In this document: piece after piece, positions 16,659 through 36,337 of the stretch
Position numbering within the stretch: position 1 is the stretch's first letter
How the letters are laid out: each line of letters opens with the position of its first letter
NCBI RefSeq assembly: GCF_900141995.1
Contig: NZ_FQZA01000018.1
Span: 1 to 50,571, forward strand
Length of the DNA: 50,571 bases
From: Palleronia salina
GTDB taxonomy: Bacteria > Pseudomonadota > Alphaproteobacteria > Rhodobacterales > Rhodobacteraceae
Reading direction: 5' to 3'
Position numbers and translations under genes: made by a program
The notes under the pieces: generated by a model
Told to the model about the DNA's origin: nothing
Database searches by the model: none
Seen by the model: the letters and a program-made list of their open reading frames with translations, nothing else

Positions 16659-17723
16659 TTGCCCCATGACGCGGCCTTTGCCGTTCCCGGCGACCTGAAC
16701 GCCACCACCGGCGGATACCACTACGACCGCAGCCTGATCGAGGCCGTGCGCCGCGCCGGCCACGGCATGCGGCCCGTGGTCCTGCCGGGCGATTTCCCCT
16801 TCCCGACCGACGCCGAGATGGCGCAGGCGGCCGACATGCTGGCCGCCCTGCCCGGCAACGAGGTCGTTATCATCGACGGGCTGGCCTACGGCGCCCTGCC
16901 AGACGCCGCGGTCGCGCGGATCCCGGCGCCCATCGTGGCCCTGGTCCACCATCCGCTGGCCCACGAAAGCGACCTGCCCCCCGAGACCGCCGCGCGCCTT
17001 GCCGCGCAGGAGCGGCGCAACCTCGCCCGCGCCGCGCATGTGATCGTCCCCAGCCCGCATATCCGCGACGTGCTGCTGGCCGATTACGGCGTTGCAGAGA
17101 ATGACCTGACCGTCCTGCGCCCGGGCCGCAGCGGTGCGCCGCGGCCGTCGACCGAAAGGGCGAAGGACGACCCGCCGCTGATCCTGTCCGTGGGGCTGCT
17201 CCACCCGCGCAAGGGGCACGACACGCTTGTCGACGCGCTGGCGATGCTTTGTGATCTGAAGTGGCACGCGGTGATCGTCGGCGCGCCCTGGCAGGACGGC
17301 TTCGAAACCCGGCTGCGCGACCGCATCGCCGGCGCGGGGCTGACCGGCCGGGTCGAGATCGCGGGCCGGGTCCCCGACGACCGGCTGCGCGATCTCTACG
17401 ACCGGGCCCACCTGTTCGCGCTGGCCACCCGGTACGAGGGGTACGGGATCGTCTTCGACGAGGCGCTGCTGAACGGTCTGCCCATCGTCGCGACCACGGC
17501 GGGCGCGGTGCCGGGCACCGTGCCGCCCGATGCGGGCCGGCTGGTGCCGCCCGACGATCCCGCCGCCTTCGCGACCGCGCTGCGCGGCCTGTTGAGCGAT
17601 CCCGTGGCCCACGCGGGTGCCGTCGAGGCCGCGCGCAGCGCCGCCCGTGACCTTTCCAGCTGGGACGACACCGGGCGGGGCCTGCTGGCCGTTCTCGACC
17701 GCGTGACGGGGCGGGCGGCATGA
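16659..17723 (+). CDS. GT4-family glycosyltransferase
   Basis: 354 aa, GT-B fold. The C-terminal nucleotide-sugar site is clear: LSVGLLHPRKGHDTLVDAL, then the E-x7-E motif EGYGIVFDE (E260, E268) and GLPIVATTAGAVPGTV. It transfers a sugar from a nucleotide donor to an unknown acceptor. The start is TTG at 16659, with AGGGAG seven bases upstream; no ATG gives a full N-terminus, and the predicted start (PHDAAFAVPGDLNATTGGYH) includes the family's N-terminal glycine loop. It overlaps the inositol-phosphatase-like gene by 4 bp (ATGA). With the RibA/PTPS genes downstream it suggests glycosylation of that product, which is inference. Confidence 0.82.
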   Translation: MPHDAAFAVPGDLNATTGGYHYDRSLIEAVRRAGHGMRPVVLPGDFPFPTDAEMAQAADMLAALPGNEVVIIDGLAYGALPDAAVARIPAPIVALVHHPLAHESDLPPETAARLAAQERRNLARAAHVIVPSPHIRDVLLADYGVAENDLTVLRPGRSGAPRPSTERAKDDPPLILSVGLLHPRKGHDTLVDALAMLCDLKWHAVIVGAPWQDGFETRLRDRIAGAGLTGRVEIAGRVPDDRLRDLYDRAHLFALATRYEGYGIVFDEALLNGLPIVATTAGAVPGTVPPDAGRLVPPDDPAAFATALRGLLSDPVAHAGAVEAARSAARDLSSWDDTGRGLLAVLDRVTGRAA

Positions 17724-18505
17724 GCGGACGAGAAGAAGACCTTGCGCTGGCCGTGGAGCTTGCGCGCGAAGCGGGGGACATCCTGCGCCATCACTGGCAG
17801 AACCGCGCGACCTTGCAGCCACAATCCAAGCGGGTCGGCGATTTCGTATCGCAGGCCGACCTCGCGTCCGAGCGGCACCTGCGTGACCGGTTGCAGGCCG
17901 CCCGCCCCGGGGACGGCTGGCTGGGCGAGGAAACCGGCGCCGGCGCGCCCGCCGCGCGCCGCTGGATCGTCGACCCGCTGGATGGCACGACGAACTTCCT
18001 GCACGGTCTGGGCCATTTCGCGGTGTCCATCGCGCTGGAGGATGACGGCGGCCTCGCGCTCGGCGTCGTGCATGACCCGCTGCGCGGCGAGACCTTCGCC
18101 GCCACCCGCGACGGTCCCGCCACCCTGAACGGTGCCCCCATCGCGCCGTCCCCGGGTGGCGACATGACCGCGGCGCTGTTCGGGACCGGCATCCCCTTTG
18201 GCGACATGCCCCATATCGACGACCACGCGGCAGATATCGCCCGGATCGCCCCGCATTGCGCCGGGGTGCGACGATTCGGCGCGGCGGCGCTGGACCTCGC
18301 CTACGTGGCGGCCGGGCGGCTGGACGGGTTCTGGGAACGGCGGTTGCAGCCATGGGACATCGCGGCCGGGCTCGTCCTGCTGCGGGCCGCCGGGGCGCGG
18401 GTCGAGGGCTGGACGCCCGACGGCCCGCCCGAGACGACGGGCGACGTCGTCGCCGCCGGCCCGAACCTGTTCACGCCTTTCGCCCGGATCATCCGCGGGG
18501 GGTGA
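17720..18505 (+). CDS. Inositol monophosphatase family sugar-phosphate phosphatase
   Basis: 261 aa, normal family length. All metal and catalytic motifs are present: GEE (69-71), WIVDPLDGTTNF (82-93, with D85, D88, T90) and WDIAAG (212-217, D213). Such enzymes hydrolyse inositol phosphates, adenosine 3',5'-bisphosphate or other sugar phosphates, with Mg2+. ATGA overlap with the glycosyltransferase gene shows coupling, so it probably removes a phosphate from an intermediate of the same product. It converges on the FkbM gene, with five bases between the stop codons. Confidence 0.85.
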   Translation: MSGREEDLALAVELAREAGDILRHHWQNRATLQPQSKRVGDFVSQADLASERHLRDRLQAARPGDGWLGEETGAGAPAARRWIVDPLDGTTNFLHGLGHFAVSIALEDDGGLALGVVHDPLRGETFAATRDGPATLNGAPIAPSPGGDMTAALFGTGIPFGDMPHIDDHAADIARIAPHCAGVRRFGAAALDLAYVAAGRLDGFWERRLQPWDIAAGLVLLRAAGARVEGWTPDGPPETTGDVVAAGPNLFTPFARIIRGG

Positions 18506-18510
18506 CGTCC

Positions 18511-19242
18511 TTAGTGCGACGCGAGCCGGGCGAAAAGATCGCCGGACTCCGCGTCCTCGGGCAGACCGGCCAGCCAGGCCTTCGCGGCATCGGCATCGCG
18601 CCAATCGGGCCAGAGGAACGCGCCCGTCTCGCCCTGCACGGGGTTGAAGCGATAGTCGCCCAGCGCGCACAGCCGGTCGATCACGCCGACGGTGAGCTTG
18701 GGGAAGGCGGGCAGGTATTCGACCGACAGCATCGGCAACGGCTGCGACAGGCCCGACAGGACCTCGATCTCGAAGCCCTCGACGTCGATCTTCACGTAGG
18801 ACGGCATCCCGTGACGCGCGATCAGGCCATCCAGCGTCACCATCTGCACCTGCTGGCGCCGGTCCCAGCTGACATGCTCGAACCCGTGCGCCTGCGACGC
18901 GCCGCCGACGAAGCCGGTGGCCAGCGACGACACGGTCGGGTGGCGCGACGACACGGCCATCTCGGCCACGGTCTCCTCGGCGCCGATGGCGGCCTCGACC
19001 AGGGTGATGTCGCGCGGCAGCGTGCGGCGCAGGAACCCGGCGAAAGGGGCCTGCGGCTCGAAGGCGACGACCCGGGCGCCCGCCGCCCGCATGGCCCGGG
19101 CCCGCGTTCCCATGTGCGCGCCCACGTCGAAGACCAGGTCCCCCGGCGTCAAAACGCCGCGATAGAACCGCCGCCAGGCCGCAATCGTCACGGGGTTGTG
19201 ATAGATCAGGAACGACCTCAGAAAGCCCAGCCAGTGCTGCAT
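18511..19242 (-). CDS. FkbM-family SAM-dependent methyltransferase
   Basis: 243 aa. Motif I is FDVGAHMGTRARAM, followed by VVAFEPQAPFAGFLRRTL and the FkbM signature YVKIDVEGFEIEVLSGL. FkbM enzymes O-methylate sugars or polyketides, commonly on glycans or lipopolysaccharide. Start taken as ATG 19242 (MQHWLGFL), preceded by AAAGG; ATG 19266 would add eight residues. It lies inverted between the phosphatase gene and ribA and diverges from ribA with 141 bp between. It may modify the sugar added by the glycosyltransferase, or be an unrelated insertion. Confidence 0.82.
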   Translation of the reverse strand: MQHWLGFLRSFLIYHNPVTIAAWRRFYRGVLTPGDLVFDVGAHMGTRARAMRAAGARVVAFEPQAPFAGFLRRTLPRDITLVEAAIGAEETVAEMAVSSRHPTVSSLATGFVGGASQAHGFEHVSWDRRQQVQMVTLDGLIARHGMPSYVKIDVEGFEIEVLSGLSQPLPMLSVEYLPAFPKLTVGVIDRLCALGDYRFNPVQGETGAFLWPDWRDADAAKAWLAGLPEDAESGDLFARLASH

Positions 19243-19383
19243 CGGGGCGCCTTTGCGATGAATCATTGGTTCAGGGGCATTTAGCGCGCCCCGCCCTGCG
19301 TCCAGTGGCCTCACCCCGCGGGTGGGCGGAAACACGTCGCACAGCTTGCCTTGGTCCCAGCCCGCCTAAGTTGATCTTCCAGA

Positions 19384-20547
19384 TTGAGTAGCGATTGGAC
19401 CACGGCCTTGCAGATCTTCAGACACCCCGCCGCGGATGACGACACCGGCATCGCGGCTCTCGCCCCGCGCGGGACCGAGAAACTGGCGCGGGCGCGGGGC
19501 GACCTGCGCATGGGCCTGCCGGTCTTGGTAACCGACGGCACGCGCTCCGCGCTTGTCGCGCTGGTCGAGCCGCTGTCGGACGCGCGCCTGGCCGCCCTGT
19601 CGTCGCTCGGCCCGGTCGAGCTGGCGCTGACCGACCACCGCGCCGTGGCCCTGGGCGCGCATCCCGCGCCGGGCACCGGCAGCGTCATGCGGCTGCCGCT
19701 GGCCCGCGTCGGCACCGCGGCGGCCATCCGCACCATGGCGGGCGGCATGGCCACCCTGGCGCCCGTCACGCCCGTGCCGCCCGCGGCGGCCGAGCCCGGC
19801 TCGGACCTGCATGCCGCCGCCGTGGGCCTGGCCAAGGCCGAGGAACTGCTCCCGGCGGCCGTCGTGGTGCCGCTGGGCGCCGCGCGTGCCGAGGCCGCGC
19901 GGCTTGGCCTTCTGACCATCGCCGCGGGTGACATCCTTGCCGCGCTCGGGACGTCGGCCTCGCACGGCCGCGTCAGCGCGGCGCCCCTGCCCACCGACAG
20001 CTCCGAGACCGGCCGCGTCCATGTCTTCCGGGCCGAGGGTGGTGGACGCGAACACTCGGCGGTCGAGGTCGGACAGCCGGATTTCTCGCAGCCCGTCCTC
20101 GTGCGCCTGCACTCGGCCTGTTTCACCGGTGACGTTCTGGGCAGCCGCAAGTGCGATTGCGGCCCGCAGTTGCGGGCAGCCATGACCACGATGGGCGACT
20201 CCGCGGGCGGGGTGCTGCTGTATCTCAACCAGGAGGGACGCGGCATCGGCCTGGCCAACAAGATGCGCGCCTACAACCTGCAGGACGCCGGGCTGGACAC
20301 CGTCGACGCGAACCAGTGGCTGGGCTTCGACGACGACCAGCGCGACTTCCGCATCGGCGCGCAGATGCTGCACGCCCTTGGCATCTCGCGCGTGCGGCTG
20401 ATGACCAACAATCCCGCCAAGATCGCCCGCCTGACCGAGCACGGCATCGACGTGGTCGAACGCGTGCCGTTGCAGGTCGGACGCTCGGCGCTGAACGCGC
20501 ACTACCTGGCGACGAAGGCGGCCCGGTCGGGGCACCTGCTGCCATGA
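19384..20547 (+). CDS. ribA: GTP cyclohydrolase II with degenerate N-terminal RibB-like domain
   Basis: 387 aa. The C-terminal domain (about 205-387) is a complete GTP cyclohydrolase II: zinc ligands C246, C257, C259, QEGRGIGL (283-290), the LGFDDDQRD acidic/arginine motif and TNNPAK. It would convert GTP to the diaminopyrimidine ribosyl phosphate that starts riboflavin synthesis. Residues 1-200 align loosely with 3,4-dihydroxybutanone-phosphate synthase but lack its DDEDREN metal loop, so this half should be inactive. Start assigned to TTG 19384; no strong ribosome site is visible and another start is possible. It overlaps the MDR gene by 4 bp. It could serve riboflavin synthesis, but the neighbours suggest a dedicated pathway. 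Confidence 0.85.
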   Translation: MSSDWTTALQIFRHPAADDDTGIAALAPRGTEKLARARGDLRMGLPVLVTDGTRSALVALVEPLSDARLAALSSLGPVELALTDHRAVALGAHPAPGTGSVMRLPLARVGTAAAIRTMAGGMATLAPVTPVPPAAAEPGSDLHAAAVGLAKAEELLPAAVVVPLGAARAEAARLGLLTIAAGDILAALGTSASHGRVSAAPLPTDSSETGRVHVFRAEGGGREHSAVEVGQPDFSQPVLVRLHSACFTGDVLGSRKCDCGPQLRAAMTTMGDSAGGVLLYLNQEGRGIGLANKMRAYNLQDAGLDTVDANQWLGFDDDQRDFRIGAQMLHALGISRVRLMTNNPAKIARLTEHGIDVVERVPLQVGRSALNAHYLATKAARSGHLLP

Positions 20548-21503
20548 ACATGCACGCCACCGCGCTGTGGTGCGACGCACCGGGCGTCGTCAGTGCGCGC
20601 GCGGGCGCGGTGGGCGACGGCATCGCGGTCGGAACCCTATATACCGGGATCAGCCGCGGGACCGAGCGGCTGGTGTTCCAGGGCCGCGTGCCCGACAGCG
20701 AGGCGGGACGCATGCGCGCGCCCGCGCAGGAGGGCGATTTCCCGTTTCCGGTCAAATACGGCTACGCCGCCGTGGGCCGCGTGCTCGAGGGTCCACGCGA
20801 GGGGCAGGAGGTCTTCGCGCTCTACCCGCACCAGACGCAATTCCGCCTGCCCGCCGAGGCGCTGACGCCCCTGCCCGACGGGCTGCCCGCCGACCGTGCC
20901 GTGCTGGGCGCCAACATGGAAACCGCGCTGAACATCCTGTGGGACAGCGGCGCGGGGGCCGGTGACCAGATCGCCGTGGTCGGGGCCGGGCTGGTCGGCA
21001 CGCTGACAGGCTACCTGGCCGCGCGTCTTCCGGGGGCCGAGGTCACGCTGGTCGACGTCAACGCGGACCGGGCGATGCCGGCCCGCACGCTGGACTGCGA
21101 ATTCGCAAGCCCCGAGGCGGCCCCGCGCGACTGCGACGTCGTCATCCACACGTCAGCAACCGCTGAAGGGCTGGCCTCTGCCATCGACTGCGCGGGGGTC
21201 GAGGCCGCCGTGGTCGAGGCCAGCTGGTACGGCAGCGGCACGGTCGCCGCCCCGCTGGGCGGCGCGTTCCACAGCCGCCGCCTGCGGATCATCGGATCGC
21301 AGGTCGGGCAGGTGCCCCCGCACCGGCGCGCGCGCTGGGACTACGCCCGCCGACTGGGCATGGCCCTGAACCTGCTGCGCGACCCGCGGCTCGATATCCT
21401 CATCTCGGGCGAGACGGCGTTCGCCGACCTGCCCGAACGGTATGGCGCGATCCTGGGCGACCCCGCGACCCTGTGCCACCGCGTCCGTTACGACCCAATT
21501 TAA
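20544..21503 (+). CDS. MDR-superfamily dehydrogenase lacking the catalytic zinc cysteine (BchC-like)
   Basis: 319 aa. GroES-like N-terminal half and a Rossmann half with VVGAGLVGTLTGYL (GxGxxG at 147-152). Where zinc alcohol dehydrogenases have G-x-C-x-x-D, this protein has TGISRGTE (34-41), the same replacement seen in BchC-type and other zinc-free MDR enzymes. It should reduce or oxidise an alcohol/ketone with NAD(P)H. ATG at 20544 overlaps ribA by 4 bp, and the PTPS-like gene begins 9 bp after its stop, so it belongs to the RibA/PTPS operon. Substrate unknown. Confidence 0.8.
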   Translation: MNMHATALWCDAPGVVSARAGAVGDGIAVGTLYTGISRGTERLVFQGRVPDSEAGRMRAPAQEGDFPFPVKYGYAAVGRVLEGPREGQEVFALYPHQTQFRLPAEALTPLPDGLPADRAVLGANMETALNILWDSGAGAGDQIAVVGAGLVGTLTGYLAARLPGAEVTLVDVNADRAMPARTLDCEFASPEAAPRDCDVVIHTSATAEGLASAIDCAGVEAAVVEASWYGSGTVAAPLGGAFHSRRLRIIGSQVGQVPPHRRARWDYARRLGMALNLLRDPRLDILISGETAFADLPERYGAILGDPATLCHRVRYDPI

Positions 21504-21512
21504 GGAGCAACC

Positions 21513-21908
21513 ATGTTCGCCGTCGAAGTCCGAGACCACATCATGATCGGCCATTCTCTGCCATCGCCCGTGTTCGGCCCCGCGCAGGGGATGCACGGGG
21601 CGACCTTCACCGTAGACGCCGCCTTCTTCACCGAAGACATCGACGAGCACGGCCTGGTCGTCGATATCGGCCTGGCCACCGAGGGGCTTTCGAAGGTGCT
21701 CGAGCCGCTGCGCTACCAGAACCTGGACGAAGTGCCCGAGTTCAAGGGCAAGTTCACCACGACCGAGTTCCTGTGCCGCCACATCTTCGACGGCATGGCC
21801 GAGTTCGTGAAGCAGGGACACCTGAAGGACGGCGGGCGGCTGCGCAAGCTGCGGATCCTGCTCCACGAAAGCCACGTGGCCCGCGCCTGGTACGAGGGCG
21901 AGGTCTAG
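21513..21908 (+). CDS. 6-pyruvoyl-tetrahydropterin synthase-like protein (QueD/PTPS fold) with altered zinc site
   Basis: 131 aa, typical PTPS length. Recognisable elements are IGHSL with zinc-ligand-like H14, GMHGATFTVDAAF with H28, VVDIG (49-53), TTTEF (82-86) and the final catalytic Glu in HES (E119). However, the normal HGH pair reads HGA (third zinc His replaced by A30), and the active-site Cys before it is absent. The enzyme may therefore act on a pterin or pyrimidine by a different chemistry, or bind metal otherwise. A good AAGGAG precedes ATG 21513. Lies between the dehydrogenase and methyltransferase genes in one operon. Confidence 0.8.
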   Translation: MFAVEVRDHIMIGHSLPSPVFGPAQGMHGATFTVDAAFFTEDIDEHGLVVDIGLATEGLSKVLEPLRYQNLDEVPEFKGKFTTTEFLCRHIFDGMAEFVKQGHLKDGGRLRKLRILLHESHVARAWYEGEV

Positions 21909-21910
21909 GC

Positions 21911-22657
21911 ATGGGATTTTCCGCCGACTGGCTGTCCCTGCGCGAACCCGCCGACATGGCGGCGCGGGACGCGACGCTGCTGCGGCAGGCGGCCGCGGCG
22001 GCGGGCCCCGATCCGGTCGTGCTGGACCTGGGCTGCGGCACCGGCGCCACCGTGCGCGCCCTCGGGCCGCACCTGCCCGCATCCGCGAAATGGCACCTGG
22101 TGGACAACGACCCGGACCTTCTGCCCCACGCCGCGGCCGCCGCCGGCGACGGGGCGCAAACCCACGAGCTGGACCTGCAACGGCTCGAGGACCTACCGCT
22201 GGAGGACGTGACCATCGTGACCGCCTCGGCCCTGCTGGACCTTGCGTCCGAGGACTGGGTGCGCGCCCTCGCGGCACGGCTGGACGTGCCGTTCTACGCC
22301 GCGCTGTCCTACGACGGGCACATGGGCTGGACCCCGCTCGACCCCGAAGACGCGGCGGTGACCGACACGTTCAATGCCGATCAGCAGACCGACAAGGGCT
22401 TCGGCCCCGCCATGGGGCCCGAGGCGGGCGACCGCAGTGCCGCGGCTTTCGAGGCCGCCGGCTTCGACGTCCGGACCGCCCGCAGCCCGTGGCGGCTGGG
22501 CCCCGACGCCGCCGCGCTGCAGGCCGAGCTGGTGCGCGGCATCGCGGGGGCCGCCGGCGCGGGGGAATGGGGCCAGCGGCGCGTGGCCGCCGCCGGCAAT
22601 GCCGAATGCCGCGTGGGTCACATCGACCTGCTGGCCATACCCGGCGGAGGGGCGTGA
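21911..22657 (+). CDS. Class I SAM-dependent methyltransferase
   Basis: 248 aa. Motif I VLDLGCGTGATVRAL (38-52) with GxGxG 41-45, motif II-like WHLVDNDPDLL, and a later segment VTASALLDLASEDWV. A DVTIVTASALLDL order resembles methyltransferases of natural-product and cofactor pathways. The C-terminus (about 205-248) carries a GEWGQRR segment of unknown role. ATG at 21911 is 2 bp after the PTPS stop; its TGA shares a base with the ATG of the RibD-like gene (TGATG). The target is probably the pyrimidine or pterin intermediate made by its neighbours, by inference. Confidence 0.78.
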   Translation: MGFSADWLSLREPADMAARDATLLRQAAAAAGPDPVVLDLGCGTGATVRALGPHLPASAKWHLVDNDPDLLPHAAAAAGDGAQTHELDLQRLEDLPLEDVTIVTASALLDLASEDWVRALAARLDVPFYAALSYDGHMGWTPLDPEDAAVTDTFNADQQTDKGFGPAMGPEAGDRSAAAFEAAGFDVRTARSPWRLGPDAAALQAELVRGIAGAAGAGEWGQRRVAAAGNAECRVGHIDLLAIPGGGA

Positions 22658-23484
22658 TGGAGCCGATCGAGGTCACCGAACGCGTCTGGGAGCGCCTCCT
22701 TGCCGTGCGAGACGGACGGTTCTGCACCTGTTGCGGCAGCTGGTCCCCCGGTGAACGCGCGGCGCTTGCGCTCTACGGCCCCCTCGCCCGGCGCGACCTC
22801 GGCCCCATGACTGTTGCCCAGATCGGTCAATCGCTGGACGGGCGCGTGGCCACCGTCACGGGCGATGCACGCGATATCTCGGGGCCGGACGGTCTGGCCC
22901 ATCTGCACCGGATGCGGGCGCTGGTCGACGGCGTGGTCATCGGGGTCGGCACCGCGCTGCACGACACGCCGCGCCTGACCGTGCGGCTCTGCCCCGGTCC
23001 CAGCCCCGTGCGCGTGGTCATCGACCCGCGCGGACGGCTGCCCAACGACGCGCCGCTCCTGCACTGCCAGGCCACGCGCCGCATCGTCATACAGGGCGTC
23101 GATCTGCCGCGGCCCGACGGGGTCGAGGTGGTCCGCCTTGCCGCGCCGGACGGTGCGTTCGACCCGGCCGAGATCCTGGCGGCGCTGCACGCCCTGGGCC
23201 TGCAATCCCTGTTGATCGAGGGCGGCGGCACGACCATTTCGCATTTCATCGAGGCCGGGTGCCTGACGCGCCTCCAGGTCTCGGTCGCGCCCCTGCTGAT
23301 CGGCGGCGGGCAACTGGGCCTGACCCTGCCCCACCCGACCGAGAAACTGTCCGACGCGCTGCGTCCCGAAACACGCGTGTTCTCGCTGGGATCGGACGTG
23401 GTCTTCGATTGCGCGCTGGCGCCCGACGCGCAAGCCGCGCTGGACCCGGTCCACGCCAAGCCGCGCCGCGTCGCCGGAAGCTGA
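22657..23484 (+). CDS. RibD C-terminal-type reductase (dihydrofolate-reductase fold)
   Basis: 275 aa. From about residue 50 it matches the RibD reductase domain: MTVAQIGQSLDGRVAT, then LHRMRALVDGVVIGVGTAL, RLTVR, and LLIEGGGTTISHFIEAG for the NADPH and substrate sites. In riboflavin synthesis this domain reduces the ribosyl group of the pyrimidine to ribityl. There is no deaminase domain; instead the first 48 residues are unusual and contain CTCC (C23, C25, C26). Final gene of the rightward operon; it converges on the LPG-synthase-like gene, with 9 bp between stops. With ribA it implies reduction of a RibA-derived pyrimidine. Confidence 0.82.
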   Translation: MEPIEVTERVWERLLAVRDGRFCTCCGSWSPGERAALALYGPLARRDLGPMTVAQIGQSLDGRVATVTGDARDISGPDGLAHLHRMRALVDGVVIGVGTALHDTPRLTVRLCPGPSPVRVVIDPRGRLPNDAPLLHCQATRRIVIQGVDLPRPDGVEVVRLAAPDGAFDPAEILAALHALGLQSLLIEGGGTTISHFIEAGCLTRLQVSVAPLLIGGGQLGLTLPHPTEKLSDALRPETRVFSLGSDVVFDCALAPDAQAALDPVHAKPRRVAGS

Positions 23485-23493
23485 CCCGGCGGG

Positions 23494-24411
23494 TCAGGCC
23501 GGGGTTGGTCTGCGCAGCAGCAGCACCGCCACGCCGGGCAGCGCCGACGCGATCAGAAGCAGCCCGAAGGTGACGCTCGCCGCGAGCCCCGCGCTGGCCG
23601 ACAACCCCGCCAGCGGGAACAGCACCGCAGCCGCCCCTTCGCGCAATCCCCACCCGCTGATGGAAAGCGGGATGAGCATGGAAAGCAGGATCAGCGGCAC
23701 CAGCGTCAGCGTCTCGATGGGCCCAAGTCCGGCCCCCACCGCCCGCGCGGCCAGCGCGAAGCCCGCGAGGTTGCACAGCGCGGTGCCGAGGCTCAGGACC
23801 AGCTGCGCGCGGAGCACCTGCGGCGCCAGCAGCGCGTGCGCCACGGGTCGCCAGATGGCGCGTGCGCGGTCGTTTCGGCGCGCGAGCCAGGCCAGCCCGG
23901 GCGGCACGAGGGCCGCGGCCAGAAGGCCCAGCGCGATGGCTACGGCCAGCCAGCCGGGCCAGTCGATCCGCCCGGGCAGAGCGAGTGTGGCAGCGAAGCC
24001 GATGGCCAGGCATAAGAAGAGGCCCACCTGCCCCGCCAGGCGTTCGATCACCACCGACTGCCCCGCCGCCCACATGCCCGCCTGGTCGCGCGCCCGCACC
24101 GCCCGGCGCGCGTCGCCCAGAACGCCGCCGGGGATCGACTGGTTCAGAAGCTGCGCCTCGAAGTATTCCGACAGCGCGCGGCCCCGGCTCATGCCAATGC
24201 CCAGCTGCGCGGCCGTCAGTCGCCAGCGCATGGCCGACAGCACGGTTTGGGCCATCAGCGCAACCCAGGCGGCGAGCAGCCAGCCGGGCTGCGCCTGCCG
24301 CAGCCGATCCAGCGCCTCGCCCCCGCCGGCATAACGCCACAGCAGCCCCAGCAGCAGAACCGCCACCGCGACCTGCGCCACGCGGCGCAACCACCCGGGC
24401 AAGCGCGGCAC
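23494..24411 (-). CDS. Lysylphosphatidylglycerol-synthase-type transmembrane protein (UPF0104/AglD-like)
   Basis: 305 aa, about eight hydrophobic helices. The family signature is visible in GRALSEYFEAQLLNQSIPGGVLGDARRA split around residues 100-128, and in the SISGWGLREGAAAVLF segment near residue 255. Proteins of this flippase-like family move lipids or lipid-linked sugars or handle lipid head groups. Start is GTG 24411, two bases after the stop of the preceding sulfatase gene, with G-rich ribosome site; the open frame upstream is a shadow. Third gene of a leftward operon with the CDP-alcohol transferase and sulfatase genes. Confidence 0.78.
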   Translation of the reverse strand: MPRLPGWLRRVAQVAVAVLLLGLLWRYAGGGEALDRLRQAQPGWLLAAWVALMAQTVLSAMRWRLTAAQLGIGMSRGRALSEYFEAQLLNQSIPGGVLGDARRAVRARDQAGMWAAGQSVVIERLAGQVGLFLCLAIGFAATLALPGRIDWPGWLAVAIALGLLAAALVPPGLAWLARRNDRARAIWRPVAHALLAPQVLRAQLVLSLGTALCNLAGFALAARAVGAGLGPIETLTLVPLILLSMLIPLSISGWGLREGAAAVLFPLAGLSASAGLAASVTFGLLLIASALPGVAVLLLRRPTPA

Positions 24412-24413
24412 GC

Positions 24414-26048
24414 TCAGCCCCCCAGCGGGATGGCGGCCAGGCCGCTGGTGAACGCGCCGATCAGACGGTCGCGCATCCGGTCCATGCCGATCACCGGCGT
24501 GTCCGGTGCCGGGACCAGGCCGGGCCGCCAGCCCCAATCCCGCACCTGCGCCACCAGCTCCGGGGGGCCGATAACGTGAACCGGCACATCGCTGCGATCG
24601 TCCAGCGCCACGAAATCGGCGGCCTGGTGGTCACCCGTCACGATCATCAGCGGCGGGTCGTCGGCGTGGCGCGCGGCATAGTCGATCACGTTGGACAGCG
24701 CGTAGTCGACCGCCTTGCGATACTGCTCGCGAACCCGGTCGCGATCGCGCCAGACCTCTTCCGGGGTCGGGGCTCCCTCGACCATCAGCTGGAAAATGCG
24801 CCCGTCGCCGATGGCGTCCCACTCCACCAGTTCGGGCACGGGCACCCAGGGCGCGTGCGACGACCCGGTGGCGAGCTGGGCGAAGACCGGCTGGTCGATG
24901 GGATCCCGCACCAGCCGGTCCAGCGCGGCGAAGGTGAACTGGTCGGGCATGGTCACCCAGTTGAAGGCCGGACCCTCATAGCCCAGGTCGGCGGCGGCCA
25001 GGATGGTATCGAAGCCCATGACGGCGGACTCGGGCCAGTCCAGCGTGATCTGCGGCATGACGGCGGCGGTGTGAAACCCCGAGCGGGCGGCCAGGTGGAA
25101 CAGCGTCTCGCGCCCCGAGGCGAGCACGGCGGAATACTTGGTCTGGCCGTTCACCCACAGCCCGTTGGCGAAGGTCGCATGCGACAGCCAGCTCTGCCCG
25201 CCCTGCGTCGGCGCCGACACGAAGCCCGAGGCCATGGCTAGCCCCGCCGCCTCCAACCGCCGGGCCCCGTCGCGCAAGGTCTGGCGGTGCGTCGCGGCAT
25301 AGAGATCCGTATCAAGGCTGGCCCGGCCATAGCTTTCGACGAAGACCAGCAGCACGTCGCGGTCGATCAGGTCGAAAAGATCGTCGCGCTCGGCCATGGG
25401 ATCGCGCAGCGCGGCGATGCGGAAATCGCGCAGTTCGGCCAGCGTGCGCCGCGCCAGCCCGACGCGTTCGACCGCGACGCGGGCGGTGAAGGCGGCGCCC
25501 GGCGGATCGACGGGCAGCCGCCAGCGGCCCATGGTCTGTCCGATCTCGCCCACCGCGACGCCGGCGGCGGCGATCGCGGCTGCGCCCGCGGCCCCGCGCG
25601 CCAGCATGGGCGGCTGCACCCGCGCCCAGACGCCGGTGGCCCACCAGGTGGCGCGCACCACCAAGGCGGTGGCGATCACCGCGCCGACCGCCGCCAGGAT
25701 CGCCGGAACAAGGCCGATGGCGCCCGACAGCAGCCGGAACCCCGCGCCGACCAGCACGATATCGGCCACCGGGTTGAATCCGCGCCCCAGCGCCGTGAAG
25801 AAGGCGAAATCCGCCGCCTTCAGGACCGCGAGCAGGCAGAGCAGCACCGTCACCGCCAACCGCGAGACGAACGCCACCCGCCCCGAGGCCGCGATCAGGG
25901 CGAGCAGGATGGCAGGAAGCTCCAGCGGAAACAGGAAAAGCGCCTGCCACGTCATCGCGCCGGGATGGTTGGGCTGGATCAGGAGCAGGTGAAGAAGAAG
26001 GGCCGACAGCAGCAGCAGGACGGGCCCCACAAGGCGCCCCGGGCTCAC
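24414..26048 (-). CDS. Membrane-anchored sulfatase / LtaS-type phosphotransferase or hydrolase
   Basis: 544 aa. Four or five N-terminal membrane helices (about residues 1-160) are followed by an alkaline-phosphatase-superfamily domain. It opens with DVLLVFVESYGRASL, has SAPTQGGQSWLSHATF around the expected nucleophile, and the metal-binding TGDHQAADF with D473 and H474. LtaS, OpgB and phosphoethanolamine transferases share this arrangement; they transfer or remove phospholipid head groups outside the membrane. GTG at 26048 overlaps the CDP-alcohol transferase stop (GTGA). True sulfatase activity is unlikely to be the best guess; head-group transfer fits the neighbours better. Confidence 0.78.
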   Translation of the reverse strand: MSPGRLVGPVLLLLSALLLHLLLIQPNHPGAMTWQALFLFPLELPAILLALIAASGRVAFVSRLAVTVLLCLLAVLKAADFAFFTALGRGFNPVADIVLVGAGFRLLSGAIGLVPAILAAVGAVIATALVVRATWWATGVWARVQPPMLARGAAGAAAIAAAGVAVGEIGQTMGRWRLPVDPPGAAFTARVAVERVGLARRTLAELRDFRIAALRDPMAERDDLFDLIDRDVLLVFVESYGRASLDTDLYAATHRQTLRDGARRLEAAGLAMASGFVSAPTQGGQSWLSHATFANGLWVNGQTKYSAVLASGRETLFHLAARSGFHTAAVMPQITLDWPESAVMGFDTILAAADLGYEGPAFNWVTMPDQFTFAALDRLVRDPIDQPVFAQLATGSSHAPWVPVPELVEWDAIGDGRIFQLMVEGAPTPEEVWRDRDRVREQYRKAVDYALSNVIDYAARHADDPPLMIVTGDHQAADFVALDDRSDVPVHVIGPPELVAQVRDWGWRPGLVPAPDTPVIGMDRMRDRLIGAFTSGLAAIPLGG

Positions 26049-26800
26049 CCTGCGCGCCTGCGCCAGAGCCAGTGGATGTCGCGGCCGAAAGACCAGGCCA
26101 GCGCCAGCACCGCGATACCCACCGCCAGGGTGGCGAGCGTCGGGGAGATCGCGGGCACCTGCACCACGATCAGCGCGGCGATCTGGAGCACGCAGCCGGC
26201 CTTGCGCCCCAGCCGCTGCGGCAGCGGCCGCGCCATCCACGGCATCATCCAGCCCGAGACGAGGAACAGGTAGTGCGGCACCCCGAGGATCAGGACCAGC
26301 GGCCCGGCCTGCCCGGCGGCAAGCGCGTTCAGCGCCAGAAGCGCGGCAAGGGCCGCGTCCACCTCCATGTCGAAGCGGGCGCCGAAATCGGAGCACAGGT
26401 TCTGCCGGCGCGCGAGCCACCCGTCCACCCCGTCAAGCGACAGCGCCACAACGGCAAGCGCGATCACCGCCCAGCCGCTGACGCCGGGATCGAGGACCGG
26501 CACGATCAGCGCGGCGGCCATCCCCATCCGCGCCAGGGTGACAAGGTTGCACCAGCCCAGCGCGTCGTGGGGATAGGCCCTTTGGATCCGGTGGCCGACG
26601 AAGGCGCAGGCGGCGAGATACGCGGCCGTGGCGACGCCCGTGGCGCCCGTGTCCCCCTGCATGAGCCACGTCGCCAACAGCGCGACGCCCCACGCGCCCA
26701 GCAGCGCGGCGGCGGCAAAGCGCCACGCCGGGGAGGTCACCGCGCGGGTGCGCGCAATGGCCGGGGCCGGTCGGGAAAAATCCGTGTGTAACAGGCTCAT
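26045..26800 (-). CDS. CDP-alcohol phosphatidyltransferase
   Basis: 251 aa with six or more hydrophobic helices. The full family motif D-x2-D-G-x2-A-R-x8-G-x3-D-x3-D is present: D123, D126, G127, A130, R131, G140, D144 and D148. It joins a CDP-activated alcohol or diacylglycerol to a second alcohol, making a phospholipid or phosphodiester. The first 60 residues form extra helices before the usual core. First gene of the leftward trio; it diverges from cytochrome b561 with 96 bp between. Substrate unknown; the RibA/PTPS operon facing it raises the possibility that the alcohol is derived from that pathway. Confidence 0.88.
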   Translation of the reverse strand: MSLLHTDFSRPAPAIARTRAVTSPAWRFAAAALLGAWGVALLATWLMQGDTGATGVATAAYLAACAFVGHRIQRAYPHDALGWCNLVTLARMGMAAALIVPVLDPGVSGWAVIALAVVALSLDGVDGWLARRQNLCSDFGARFDMEVDAALAALLALNALAAGQAGPLVLILGVPHYLFLVSGWMMPWMARPLPQRLGRKAGCVLQIAALIVVQVPAISPTLATLAVGIAVLALAWSFGRDIHWLWRRRAG

Positions 26801-26896: not shown

Positions 26897-27454
26897 ATGA
26901 GCCGGACGCCCCAAGGATACGCGACCACCGCACGCCTGTTTCACTGGATCATGGCCCTTCTGGTCATCGCGATGATCGTCGCGGGCTGGCTCATGGTGCA
27001 GGAGGGGTTGAGCCGCACCGTGCAGAATCGGCTGTTCATCTTTCACAAGAACGTGGGCGTGCTGGTGGGGCTGCTCGCGGTGCTGCGCATCGCCTATCGC
27101 CTGCTCACCCCGACGCCGCCCCTGCCCGCGCACCTGCCCGCCTGGCAGGCCCGCGCGGCAGCGGCCAGCCACACTGCGCTTTATATTCTGCTGATCGTGA
27201 TGCCGGTGGCGGGCTACGTGCGGGTGATCGCCGGCGGCTTCCCGATCGAGGCGCTGAACGCAGTGAACGCGCCCTTCCTTGTCCCCAAGTCCGAGGCGCT
27301 GGCCGACACCGCCAAGGCGGTGCATTTCTACGGCGCATGGGCGATCAGCCTGATCCTGGGTGTGCATGTGCTTGCCGCCCTCCAGCATGGCCTGCTGAAG
27401 CGCGACGGCGTGTTTTCGCGCATGTGGCCGCCGGTTGCGCCCAAATCGCGCTGA
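26897..27454 (+). CDS. Cytochrome b561 family diheme membrane protein
   Basis: 185 aa with four membrane helices. Heme-ligand-type histidines lie in LFHWIMALLVIAMIVAGW (helix 1), FHKNVGVLVGLL (helix 2), SHTALYILLIVMPVAGYV (helix 3) and ISLILGVHVLAALQHGLL (helix 4), the CybB-type arrangement. It would pass electrons from quinol or to a periplasmic partner. Start ATG 26897 has GAGGAT upstream. It converges closely on the M32 peptidase gene, with six bases between stop codons, and seems to be a single-gene unit unrelated to its neighbours. Confidence 0.88.
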   Translation: MSRTPQGYATTARLFHWIMALLVIAMIVAGWLMVQEGLSRTVQNRLFIFHKNVGVLVGLLAVLRIAYRLLTPTPPLPAHLPAWQARAAAASHTALYILLIVMPVAGYVRVIAGGFPIEALNAVNAPFLVPKSEALADTAKAVHFYGAWAISLILGVHVLAALQHGLLKRDGVFSRMWPPVAPKSR

Positions 27455-34654: not shown

Positions 34655-35639
34655 GCAGGCAGAGTTTGATCCGGCCGTGGAGCGAATCGTCGCCGCGATC
34701 GACCCGAAATCGTCGGTCTCGGTCTCGACCCAGCTGCGCGGTGCGCTGGAATTCGGCATCGCCTCGGGCGAACTGCCGACGGGCCAGAAACTGCCTTCCG
34801 TCCGTATGCTGGCCAAGCGCGTCGGCATCTCTCCGGTAACCGTCTCACATGTCTATGCCTCGTTGCAATCGGCCGGTCATATCGAGGGGCGCGCCGGGTC
34901 GGGCACCTTCGTGCGCGGCGCCTCGGGCGACGACCAGCGCCGCAAGCTGGGCGCCATCGACGACATGATCGGCAACCTCCTGGCCGCCGGGCGGGAAGCG
35001 GGCCTGTCCCCGGCGGACCTGTCGCTGCGCGTGGCCATGGCACAGCCCGCCGTTTCGCGCGGCATCCGCATCCTGATGGTGGGCAACTTCCACGATGCCA
35101 CCGAAAGTTACGCCAACGACCTGCGCCCGCACCTGTCCAGCACCGACACCATCGACGTGGTGACGCTGGAACAGTTCGACACCGCCGGCGGCCACGACCT
35201 GATCATAGGGCCGCGCACCCTGCTGCCGCAGATCCGCGAGCGGGCGCCGGATGTCGACGCGGTGGCGGTGACGCTGATCCCGAACGAGGCGACGCGCGTC
35301 GCCCTGGCCGGCCTGACCCCCGACGCCAAGGTGGTCGGCTATTCCTATTTCCCGGGCTTCGTCACCATCATGAAGACCGGCATCCAGCGCTTCGCGCCGC
35401 ATGTCTCGAACCTGTCCATGGTGGTGCGCGGCGACGCCGACGAGGCGCAGCGCATCGCCGAGGCCGAGGTCGTGATCTACGCCTCGGGCGCCGGTTACCT
35501 GAACCGCGATCTGGCCGATGGCCAGGCGGCGTTCGAATATCGCCATACCCCCGACGTGCAGTCCATCCGCAGCGACCTGCTGCCCGCGATCGAGGCCTGC
35601 CGCCGCAAACCCAAACCCGCGAGGGATGCCGCCGAATGA
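34644..35639 (+). CDS. GntR-family transcriptional regulator with uncommon C-terminal domain
   Basis: 331 aa. A winged HTH of the GntR type spans about residues 28-92 (ALEFGIASGELPTGQKLPSV, then GISPVTVSHVYASLQSAGHI and GSGTFV). The remaining 230 residues do not look like the usual FadR, UTRA or aminotransferase domains; segments such as RILMVGNFHDATESYANDL and KVVGYSYFPGFVTIMKTGI suggest an alpha/beta ligand- or phospho-sensing fold like a periplasmic-binding domain. Encoded as the first gene of an operon with hydrolases and dehydrogenases (ATGA overlap with the creatininase-like gene) and divergent from the peptide importer, so it probably controls both. Confidence 0.8.
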   Translation: MREKQAEFDPAVERIVAAIDPKSSVSVSTQLRGALEFGIASGELPTGQKLPSVRMLAKRVGISPVTVSHVYASLQSAGHIEGRAGSGTFVRGASGDDQRRKLGAIDDMIGNLLAAGREAGLSPADLSLRVAMAQPAVSRGIRILMVGNFHDATESYANDLRPHLSSTDTIDVVTLEQFDTAGGHDLIIGPRTLLPQIRERAPDVDAVAVTLIPNEATRVALAGLTPDAKVVGYSYFPGFVTIMKTGIQRFAPHVSNLSMVVRGDADEAQRIAEAEVVIYASGAGYLNRDLADGQAAFEYRHTPDVQSIRSDLLPAIEACRRKPKPARDAAE

Positions 35640-36337
35640 AGATCAGCGAAAGCAACTGGTTCGAGGTCGAGGAATATCTCAAGACCGATGACCGGGCCGT
35701 TCTGGCCCTCGGCTCGACCGAGCAGCACGCCTACCTGAGCCTGTCGGTGGATTCGATCCTGTCCGAACGCGTGGCCGCCGACGCCGCCGCACCGCTGGGC
35801 GTGCCGGTCTTCCCGGCAGTGGCCTACGGCCTCACGCCTTACTTCATGGGCTTCCCCGGCAGCGTCAGCCTGAAGCTCGCCACCTATGCCGCGCTGGTGC
35901 GCGACATCCTCGACAGTCTCTACGCGACCGGGTTCCGCCGCATCCTGATCGTCAACGGCCACGGCGGGAACAGCCCGGTTCAGCCCGTCTGCGCCGAATG
36001 GATGGAGGCGCACGAGGGCGCACGCTGCCGGTTCCACGACTGGTGGAAGGCACCGAAGACCTGGGCCACGGTGCAGGAGATCGACCCGGTCGCCAGCCAC
36101 GCCAGCTGGATGGAGAACTTTCCCTGGACCCGCCTGCCCGGCCGCACCCTGCCCGACGCGCAGAAACCGTTCGTGCCCTTCGAAAAGCTGCGCGACCGCA
36201 ACGCGGCGGGGGTGCGCGAGTTGATCGGCGACGGCAATTACGGCGGCGTCTACCAGAAGCCCGACGCCGACACCGACCGGCTGTGGGCCGTGGCGGTCGA
36301 GGAAACCCGCGCGCTGCTGGACGGCGACTGGGCATGA
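35636..36337 (+). CDS. Creatininase-family amidohydrolase, variant metal motif
   Basis: 233 aa, usual length. The metal-binding beginning is LALGSTEQHAYLSLSVDSIL, with E29, H31 and D39, and the second signature is VNGHGGN (residues 105-111). In most family members the first motif is E-Q-H-G-x-H-L-P-x-x-x-D; here the second His and the Leu-Pro are missing and the loop is one residue shorter. Family members hydrolyse cyclic amides such as creatinine, or peptide-like bonds (MftE), using Zn or Mn. Coupled at both ends by 4-bp overlaps to the GntR and PanE-like genes. Confidence 0.82.
   Translation: MKISESNWFEVEEYLKTDDRAVLALGSTEQHAYLSLSVDSILSERVAADAAAPLGVPVFPAVAYGLTPYFMGFPGSVSLKLATYAALVRDILDSLYATGFRRILIVNGHGGNSPVQPVCAEWMEAHEGARCRFHDWWKAPKTWATVQEIDPVASHASWMENFPWTRLPGRTLPDAQKPFVPFEKLRDRNAAGVRELIGDGNYGGVYQKPDADTDRLWAVAVEETRALLDGDWA

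Follow-up and report, generated by a model that had tools for sequence, protein, structure and literature searches.

A conserved PTPS-IV gene cassette in Palleronia salina and its possible role in a dedicated pathway from GTP to a modified ribityl-pyrimidine or pterin

The window analyzed here is a stretch of 50,571 bases with 62-74% GC that forms the first part of contig C25 in the genome of Palleronia salina (3.57 Mb in 30 contigs). It contains a gene cassette centred on a protein of the PTPS-IV subfamily, together with genes for a GTP cyclohydrolase II (RibA), a stand-alone RibD-type reductase (RibD_C), transferases and membrane proteins. Genes in this GC-rich window were called by homology, and domains were assigned using Pfam and NCBIfam profiles. 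The features are listed below, with counts referring to the 117 PTPS-IV loci described later.

16659..17723, + strand: GT4 family glycosyltransferase of 354 amino acids with a TTG start (PF00534, E 1.6e-28; 90/117 loci)
17720..18505, + strand: inositol-monophosphatase-family phosphatase, IMPase, a possible sugar-phosphate phosphatase for the pathway (PF00459, E 1.4e-58; DPxDGT in 47/47 proteins; 50/117 loci)
18511..19266, - strand: FkbM-type methyltransferase (PF05050, E 4.6e-15; 54/117 loci)
19384..20547, + strand: GTP cyclohydrolase II (RibA) paralogue of 387 amino acids with a probable TTG start (PF00925, E 7.4e-61; TIGR00505 above cut-off)
20544..21503, + strand: zinc-less medium-chain dehydrogenase (MDR), distantly BchC-like (PF00107 below cut-off; TIGR01202 37 bits, cut-off 291)
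21513..21908, + strand: PTPS-IV subfamily protein of 131 amino acids with FGPAQ, and HGA replacing HGH (PF01242, E 8.2e-21)
21911..22657, + strand: class I S-adenosylmethionine (SAM)-dependent methyltransferase, MT (PF13649, E 1.7e-9; 110/117 loci)
22654..23484, + strand: stand-alone RibD_C pyrimidine reductase of 275-276 amino acids (PF01872, E 1.8e-34; 102/117 loci)
23494..24411, - strand: LPG_synthase_TM or flippase-like integral membrane protein, LPG_TM (PF03706, E 9.2e-34)
24414..26048, - strand: membrane sulfatase-fold protein of the alkaline phosphatase superfamily (PF00884, E 9.8e-12 on the longer open reading frame 24414-26420)
26045..26800, - strand: CDP-alcohol phosphatidyltransferase, CDP-OH-PT (PF01066, E 1.5e-13; 59/117 loci)
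26897..27454, + strand: cytochrome b561, a frequent neighbour and possible redox partner (PF01292, E 9.6e-28; 37/117 loci)

On the + strand, the GT4 and IMPase genes overlap by 4 bp, as do the RibA and MDR genes. Gaps of 9 bp and 2 bp separate MDR from PTPS and PTPS from MT, and MT overlaps RibD by 4 or 1 bp depending on the start. On the - strand, the CDP-OH-PT and sulfatase-fold genes overlap by 4 bp (GTGA), with 2 bp between the latter and LPG_TM, and this three-gene run converges on the + strand run at 16659-23484. The first-pass annotation, made from the letters of this stretch, had named genes of these kinds between 16659 and 26800, and open reading frames, starts, Pfam and NCBIfam place all of them there. 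Its picture of a tight one-strand set holds for the close packing and the overlaps but not for a single run, since the FkbM gene, which it missed, lies on the - strand between IMPase and RibA and divides the + strand into two runs, GT4-IMPase and RibA-MDR-PTPS-MT-RibD. A near-identical locus is present in Palleronia pelagia DSM 26893 (L026), where the PTPS is 100% identical and the other cassette proteins are 94-100% identical.

The possibility that these genes are not co-conserved elsewhere, raised with the original proposal, was examined by a neighbourhood search, and the genes were found together across families and above control regions. Of 398 Pseudomonadota genomes drawn evenly, 27 carry PTPS-IV (E<=1e-25), representing 20 of 213 genera, and the MDR profile (E<=1e-60), applied to 398 genomes drawn likewise, matches the same 27 genomes; at most 10 PTPS-IV and 5 MDR candidates per genome were scored. 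Up to 20 kb around the 26 matches outside the window's own genome (15.6 kb for L172 and 12.7 kb for L190) was then compared with 20 control regions of similar length, drawn from 20 of these genomes and placed at round coordinates, not at random. At 60 bits, the 26 loci contain MDR in 26, GT4 in 25, MT in 24, RibD in 22, CDP-OH-PT in 12, RibA in 11, an MdoH-type glucan glucosyltransferase in 10, LPG_TM in 10, FkbM in 8, b561 in 7, YceI in 4, sulfatase-fold in 3, IMPase in 1 and EEP in 0, while the 20 controls contain GT4 in 1, IMPase in 1 and none of the other profiled families. The first ten of these families exceed the controls at Fisher p <=0.014, in tests that treat related genomes as independent and include L172, apparently the contig already used as profile-training locus L054, with other training overlaps possible.

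A broader set, scored at 50 bits, consists of the window and 117 further loci, of which 117 of 118 contain PTPS. Among these 117 loci, MDR occurs in 112, MT in 110, RibD in 102, GT4 in 90, CDP-OH-PT in 59, FkbM and RibA in 54 each, LPG_TM in 51, IMPase in 50, sulfatase-fold in 48, b561 in 37, MdoH in 35, YceI in 21 and EEP in 18. At the haloarchaeal locus L111, where the PTPS falls below 50 bits (27% identity), the CDP-OH-PT, MDR, PTPS, GT4 and MT genes are still close together. As an internal control, window genes lying outside the cassette were counted over 105 loci: the permease of a sugar transporter occurs in 3, the corresponding binding protein in 2 and an M32 peptidase in 1 (L026 among the matches). 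This set includes 25 loci with short flanks (3 from the window's own genome and 22 more with flanks of some 1.5 kb), as well as short contigs and the near-window locus L026. A separate count over 93 loci is an undercount where gene calls failed (e.g. CDP-OH-PT 26). The PTPS-IV group as a whole is large, with at least 460 stretches encoding relatives.

Membership of the cassette is largely stable while its order shuffles between lineages. Most Rhodobacterales loci have the order MDR-PTPS-MT-RibD. In Rhizobiales and others RibD is reversed and the remaining genes run MDR-PTPS-GT4-MT, and some Roseobacters have PTPS-MT-RibD-RibA-MDR. When 15 families are considered, the most frequent same-strand neighbours are MDR-PTPS (98), PTPS-MT (69), MT-RibD (67), PTPS-GT4 (43), GT4-MT (41) and RibA-MDR (38), and the pairs involving membrane genes are CDP-OH-PT-sulfatase-fold (31), sulfatase-fold-LPG_TM (29), MT-LPG_TM (12), LPG_TM-GT4 (11) and sulfatase-fold-RibD (5). 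The GT4 and MT domains are joined in a single open reading frame, their matched parts 27-48 bases apart, at six loci in two genera (L188, L189, L191, L192, L194 and L197). These fusions indicate that the glycosyltransferase and the SAM-methyltransferase share one pathway, as had been proposed when methylation and glycosylation were first linked here. Single cases of one reading frame covering CDP-OH-PT and sulfatase-fold (L045) and part of GT4 and IMPase (L048) were also observed. Matches occur in 21 plasmid records at 27-80% identity, a distribution that fits mobility of the cassette.

On the strength of this co-conservation, there is good support for a dedicated, non-riboflavin pathway that starts from the diaminopyrimidine branch and includes methyl and glycosyl transfer. 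We also favor, with modest confidence, the more specific reading that the cassette encodes a horizontally mobile pathway, centred on PTPS-IV, that converts GTP into a ribityl-pyrimidine or pterin bearing methyl and sugar groups. Gene content, co-conservation, fusions and active-site make-up are the direct basis of this account, from which we infer the substrates, order of steps and product.

The active site of PTPS-IV was evaluated in 114 cassette proteins that had been selected for their similarity to that of the window. FGPAQ is present in 113 of 114 and FG[PS]AQ in all, the window protein included, and HGA stands in place of HGH in every one. None of the 114 carries the PTPS-I/QueD motif CxxxHGH, the PTPS-II (biopterin) motif CxxxxxHGH or the PTPS-III (folate) motif ExxHGH. 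Four plasmid records label PTPS-IV proteins '6-carboxytetrahydropterin synthase', three of them with a queuosine note, and this label is unsupported given the missing QueD motif. The cassette copy is the only PTPS-family gene found in the P. salina genome, and no QueD of the PTPS family was found there. In PTPS enzymes, we take three zinc-binding histidines, a catalytic cysteine with an Asp-His pair, and two pterin-anchoring glutamates (here Glu85 and Glu119) to be the functional residues. When the window protein is aligned with QueD and mammalian PTPS chains, the cysteine of CxxxHGH becomes Ala24, the third zinc histidine becomes Ala30 and the Asp-His pair is replaced, with Tyr68 at the histidine position. 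Across a 39-row PTPS-IV alignment, H14, H28, E85 and E119 are invariant. The two conserved glutamates speak for binding of a pyrimidine or pterin, and the loss of catalytic residues speaks for novel chemistry or a role in ligand binding. The PTPS at L111 (10001-10396), on a plasmid of the haloarchaeon Natronorubrum bangense, has an H-S-H type motif without FGPAQ, and its active site may be an older form.

The PTPS subfamilies were reportedly set out in Phillips 2012. The closest solved structure to the window protein is 3d7j (SCO6650), deposited as uncharacterised. In a 2017 paper (PMC5445326), PTPS-IV is a cluster of 561 sequences (AGeNNT cluster 62, COG0720, SCO6650/3d7j) that shares FGPAQ and has RibA (PF00925) and RibD_C (PF01872) neighbours. 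The PTPS-IV section of that paper names neither a function nor a product, nor does it describe the larger cassette (MDR, GT4, MT, CDP-OH-PT, LPG_TM, sulfatase-fold, MdoH). Calling the cluster undescribed, as the first-pass annotation did, was therefore too strong, and the present account extends the description of a known, unsolved subfamily whose neighbourhood was partly noticed in 2017.

The RibA and RibD_C genes raise the question of a plain riboflavin operon, which would contain RibA, a bifunctional RibD, RibE and RibH (RibB), often with an FMN riboswitch. Among the scanned window proteins, RibA and RibD_C are the sole riboflavin-type proteins: RibE, RibH, RibB and a deaminase domain are absent, and Pfam finds the reductase domain alone in the cassette RibD protein. 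Neither a tRNA nor an Rfam match at the gathering threshold, and thus no FMN riboswitch, was found in the window. A second RibA, 50% identical to the cassette protein, is encoded at C27:383867-384919, about 3 kb or less from genes resembling exonuclease III and thioredoxin, and a second RibD_C at C12:26957-27580 adjoins an NrdR-like gene, with a riboflavin-synthase-like gene about 4.6 kb away (translations judged by eye in both cases). These are taken as the housekeeping copies, and a RibA of the C27 kind is present in 34 of 34 family genomes examined. The view that this is not a plain riboflavin operon, for want of lumazine and riboflavin synthase genes, is borne out, and the cassette RibA is not the genome's only one.

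A backup supply of riboflavin or folate, in which RibA and RibD would be extra copies and the PTPS would bypass FolB, is very unlikely. It would account for a RibA whose sequence is that of a complete GTP cyclohydrolase II (zinc motif C-x10-C-x-C in 54/54 and QxGRGxG in 53/54 locus RibAs), and for genome G341, where the cassette RibD_C is the only one. The plain form of this explanation is rejected on the missing riboflavin genes, the separate RibA and RibD and the absence of the folate-type ExxHGH motif from all 114 PTPS proteins; GT4, MT and CDP-OH-PT would also be needless for either vitamin.

By sequence, the reductase is nearest to stand-alone diaminopyrimidine reductases. Its best solved relatives are 6p8c (E 2.6e-26), a 2,5-diamino-6-ribosylamino-pyrimidinone 5'-phosphate reductase, and 2azn (E 2.7e-25), compared with 1.5e-14 for the best bacterial RibD; against TIGR01508 it scores 96 bits, below the cut-off of 186. 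Riboflavin synthesis in archaea uses the ArfB deformylase, a member of the creatininase family, and a stand-alone reductase. The cassette resembles the archaeal route in its stand-alone reductase and, at some loci, a creatininase-family gene. A tblastn search with the protein encoded beside RibA on the Streptomyces plasmid at L108 as query found such a gene in 6 of the 26 sampled loci (E 3e-22 to 4e-15), before RibD in L183 and L196 and beside RibA in L188, L193, L194 and L197; the 20 control regions all lack it. The cassette differs from the archaeal route in using GTP cyclohydrolase II, in adding GT4, MT, MDR and PTPS-IV and in having no lumazine or riboflavin synthase. Whether the locus RibAs share one origin was approached with a tree, which gave no clean group (2 label changes), with a single origin in 30% of bootstrap trees. 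In view of that 30%, repeated recruitment is not claimed. The tree used 52 of 73 rows (41 of 43 locus RibAs and 11 of 30 others) after 21 aligned pieces were dropped as too short.

F420 derives from the same diaminopyrimidine branch. F420 or another deazaflavin would be a further candidate product, and PTPS-IV has been stated, as unpublished work, to act in F420 synthesis (PMC5041015). CofH scores above its cut-off in none of the 27 PTPS-IV genomes and has no match whatever in the window genome, which makes F420 an unlikely product in Pseudomonadota; it is rejected there, and the deazaflavin reading as a whole retains only the slightest probability. Below the cut-off, CofH matches occur in 11 of the 27 genomes, strong but split in G488 and otherwise weak, as in controls such as E. 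coli. The match in G488, an alphaproteobacterium, lies in pieces at C156:8308-9319 and is possibly a broken or mis-assembled F420 gene.

A pathway consistent with these genes would begin with RibA, either the locus copy or, where the locus lacks one, the genome's other copy, converting GTP to 2,5-diamino-6-ribosylamino-pyrimidinone 5'-phosphate. The stand-alone RibD_C would then reduce the ribosyl to a ribityl chain with no prior deamination, as in archaeal riboflavin synthesis, and a phosphatase (IMPase in Rhodobacterales) would remove the phosphate. PTPS-IV, with its two glutamates gripping the 2-amino-4-oxo-pyrimidine edge, may remodel the product together with the zinc-less MDR, perhaps closing a pterin ring. 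The MDR zinc-site motif GHE is present in only 1 of 114 proteins examined and a KYGY-type motif in 106 of 114, so the 'zinc-binding' of public records is merely an inherited name. The SAM-methyltransferase and GT4 would jointly methylate and glycosylate the product. At about half of the loci, CDP-OH-PT, often accompanied by the flippase-like and sulfatase-fold proteins, could attach the polyol to the membrane or display it there.

Several observations weigh against the proposed pathway. PTPS-IV lacks the residues that perform the chemistry in known PTPSs, and its reaction, or its status as an enzyme at all, is putative. Of the 26 sampled loci, 15 lack RibA and 4 lack RibD (L174, L185, L186 and L190, in genomes G310, G662, G671 and G378). 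RibD_C is encoded elsewhere in these genomes: three times in G310 (the nearest about 62 kb away), four times in G662 (none on the locus contig) and once each in G671 and G378 on another contig. In G341 (2.6 Mb, 6 contigs, 100% complete; contig C6), the sole RibD_C is that of the cassette, which could also serve riboflavin synthesis. The association of a second RibA with PTPS-IV, which would speak for the pathway, is borderline, at 5 of 19 PTPS-IV genomes and 0 of 15 genomes lacking PTPS-IV (Fisher p 0.053, with related genomes counted as independent; the 19 were chosen from 23 by omitting the four least complete). In four of those five genomes, the window's included, the second RibA lies within about 3 kb of PTPS, and in G074 it is about 12 kb away. 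Among the 93 loci L026-L118, L108 is the only one with the creatininase-family gene. The Streptomyces plasmids L112 and L113 carry PTPS-IV with the other profiled families absent within 12 kb. Sulfatase-fold genes (3/26, Fisher p 0.25) and IMPase genes (1/26 versus 1/20 in controls, p 1) are not general partners.

Some of these points would fit an envelope polyol or glycan head group made without pyrimidines, in which PTPS-IV and RibD_C are reused folds, the former non-catalytic or differently acting and the latter a general-purpose NADPH reductase, with RibA as a paralogue present incidentally. The missing RibA genes and the loss of the cysteine, the Asp-His pair and the third zinc histidine from PTPS-IV favor such an arrangement, as does the frequent presence of MdoH, CDP-OH-PT, LPG_TM, sulfatase-fold and FkbM genes. 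We consider it unlikely, because two steps of one route, RibA and a reductase whose nearest relatives are diaminopyrimidine reductases, occur at the same loci, a creatininase-family gene accompanies them in some, and the two pterin-anchoring glutamates are invariant.

The membrane genes suggest membrane attachment or export of the product. The motif D..DG..AR..G...D...D is characteristic of CDP-alcohol phosphatidyltransferases, and the CDP-OH-PT proteins carry the pattern D..DG..AR...G...D...D complete in 38 of 38; their matches to solved structures are weak and to cholinephosphotransferases only. Formylglycine sulfatases have a conserved C/S-x-P-x-R. The sulfatase-fold proteins contain this motif anywhere in only 7 of 46, but GG.SW and [GA]DH in 46 of 46, which suggests a transferase or phosphatase type for this protein, and sequence comparison found no solved relative. 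Attachment of the product to a lipid, an idea present from the outset, is the weakest step: CDP-OH-PT, LPG_TM and sulfatase-fold are frequent but not universal partners, occurring in 59, 51 and 48 of the 117 PTPS loci, and sulfatase-fold in 3 of the 26. Since roughly half of the loci, or more, lack these genes, lipid attachment is doubtful, though a real possibility.

Rather unlikely, in our judgment, is the same pathway ending in a soluble or exported pteridine glycoside, serving as an antioxidant, light shield or periplasmic signal in the manner of the cyanobacterial pterin glycosides or the PruR ligand, with the membrane genes as a separate envelope module that travels alongside. The low counts of CDP-OH-PT (12/26) and sulfatase-fold (3/26) in the phylum sample would be expected in that case, and bacterial pterin glycosides and periplasmic pterin signaling are known, according to a 2026 review of bacterial pterins (PMC13259868). 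A separate module agrees poorly with the 15-family arrangement, in which, counting only profiled genes on the same strand, LPG_TM directly follows MT in 12 loci and directly precedes GT4 in 11, and sulfatase-fold precedes RibD in 5, and with the clustering of CDP-OH-PT, MDR, PTPS, GT4 and MT even on a haloarchaeal plasmid. The fullest form of the lipid reading remains tentative and is given slightly less weight still: a new membrane lipid or lipid-linked cofactor would carry a GTP-derived, glycosylated and methylated ribityl-pyrimidine or -pterin head group, the RibD-reduced polyol would be the alcohol used by CDP-OH-PT, PTPS-IV would perform a new, zinc-independent chemistry on a PTPS fold, and the system would have spread, partly on plasmids, through Pseudomonadota, Actinomycetota and Halobacteria.

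Cyanobacterial and Chlorobium pterin glycosides start from GTP cyclohydrolase I and biopterin. The cassette differs from these PteA/PGT-type systems in having GTP cyclohydrolase II, RibD_C and a PTPS without a canonical motif, and is similar in its pairing of a pteridine with a glycosyltransferase (PMC5683033, PMC13259868). PruA/PruR periplasmic signaling (PMC13259868) likewise involves a pterin outside the cytoplasm in Alphaproteobacteria, with a signal thought to be of the monapterin type. The main text of that 2026 review does not contain the terms PTPS, RibD or GTP cyclohydrolase II (PMC13259868). No characterised product of the cassette was found in the literature searched, a scope that excluded preprints and most subscription journals. 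Defining the cassette corrects the 6-carboxytetrahydropterin synthase annotation and makes the function of PTPS-IV directly testable. Should the product prove to be membrane-bound, common bacteria of marine and plant-associated habitats would contain a new lipid or redox compound.

The MdoH-type gene is a neighbour in 35 of 117 loci (among them L028, L037, L109, L118, L173, L175-L178, L181, L184, L185, L196 and L197), and 8 of its 10 loci in the phylum sample lack CDP-OH-PT. MdoH and CDP-OH-PT are perhaps alternative envelope acceptors; an anti-association between them was rejected as too weak (Fisher p 0.051) and confounded by kinship. Loci L043, L051 and L063, in metagenome-assembled genomes assigned to Micrococcales or Aquiluna, carry Rhodobacteraceae-like cassettes with 76-79% PTPS identity and are probably mis-binned contigs. 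Within the window, a creatininase-family gene (PF02633) at 35636-36337, about 8 kb past the cassette and near Opp/Nik-type transporter genes, is apparently no cassette member.

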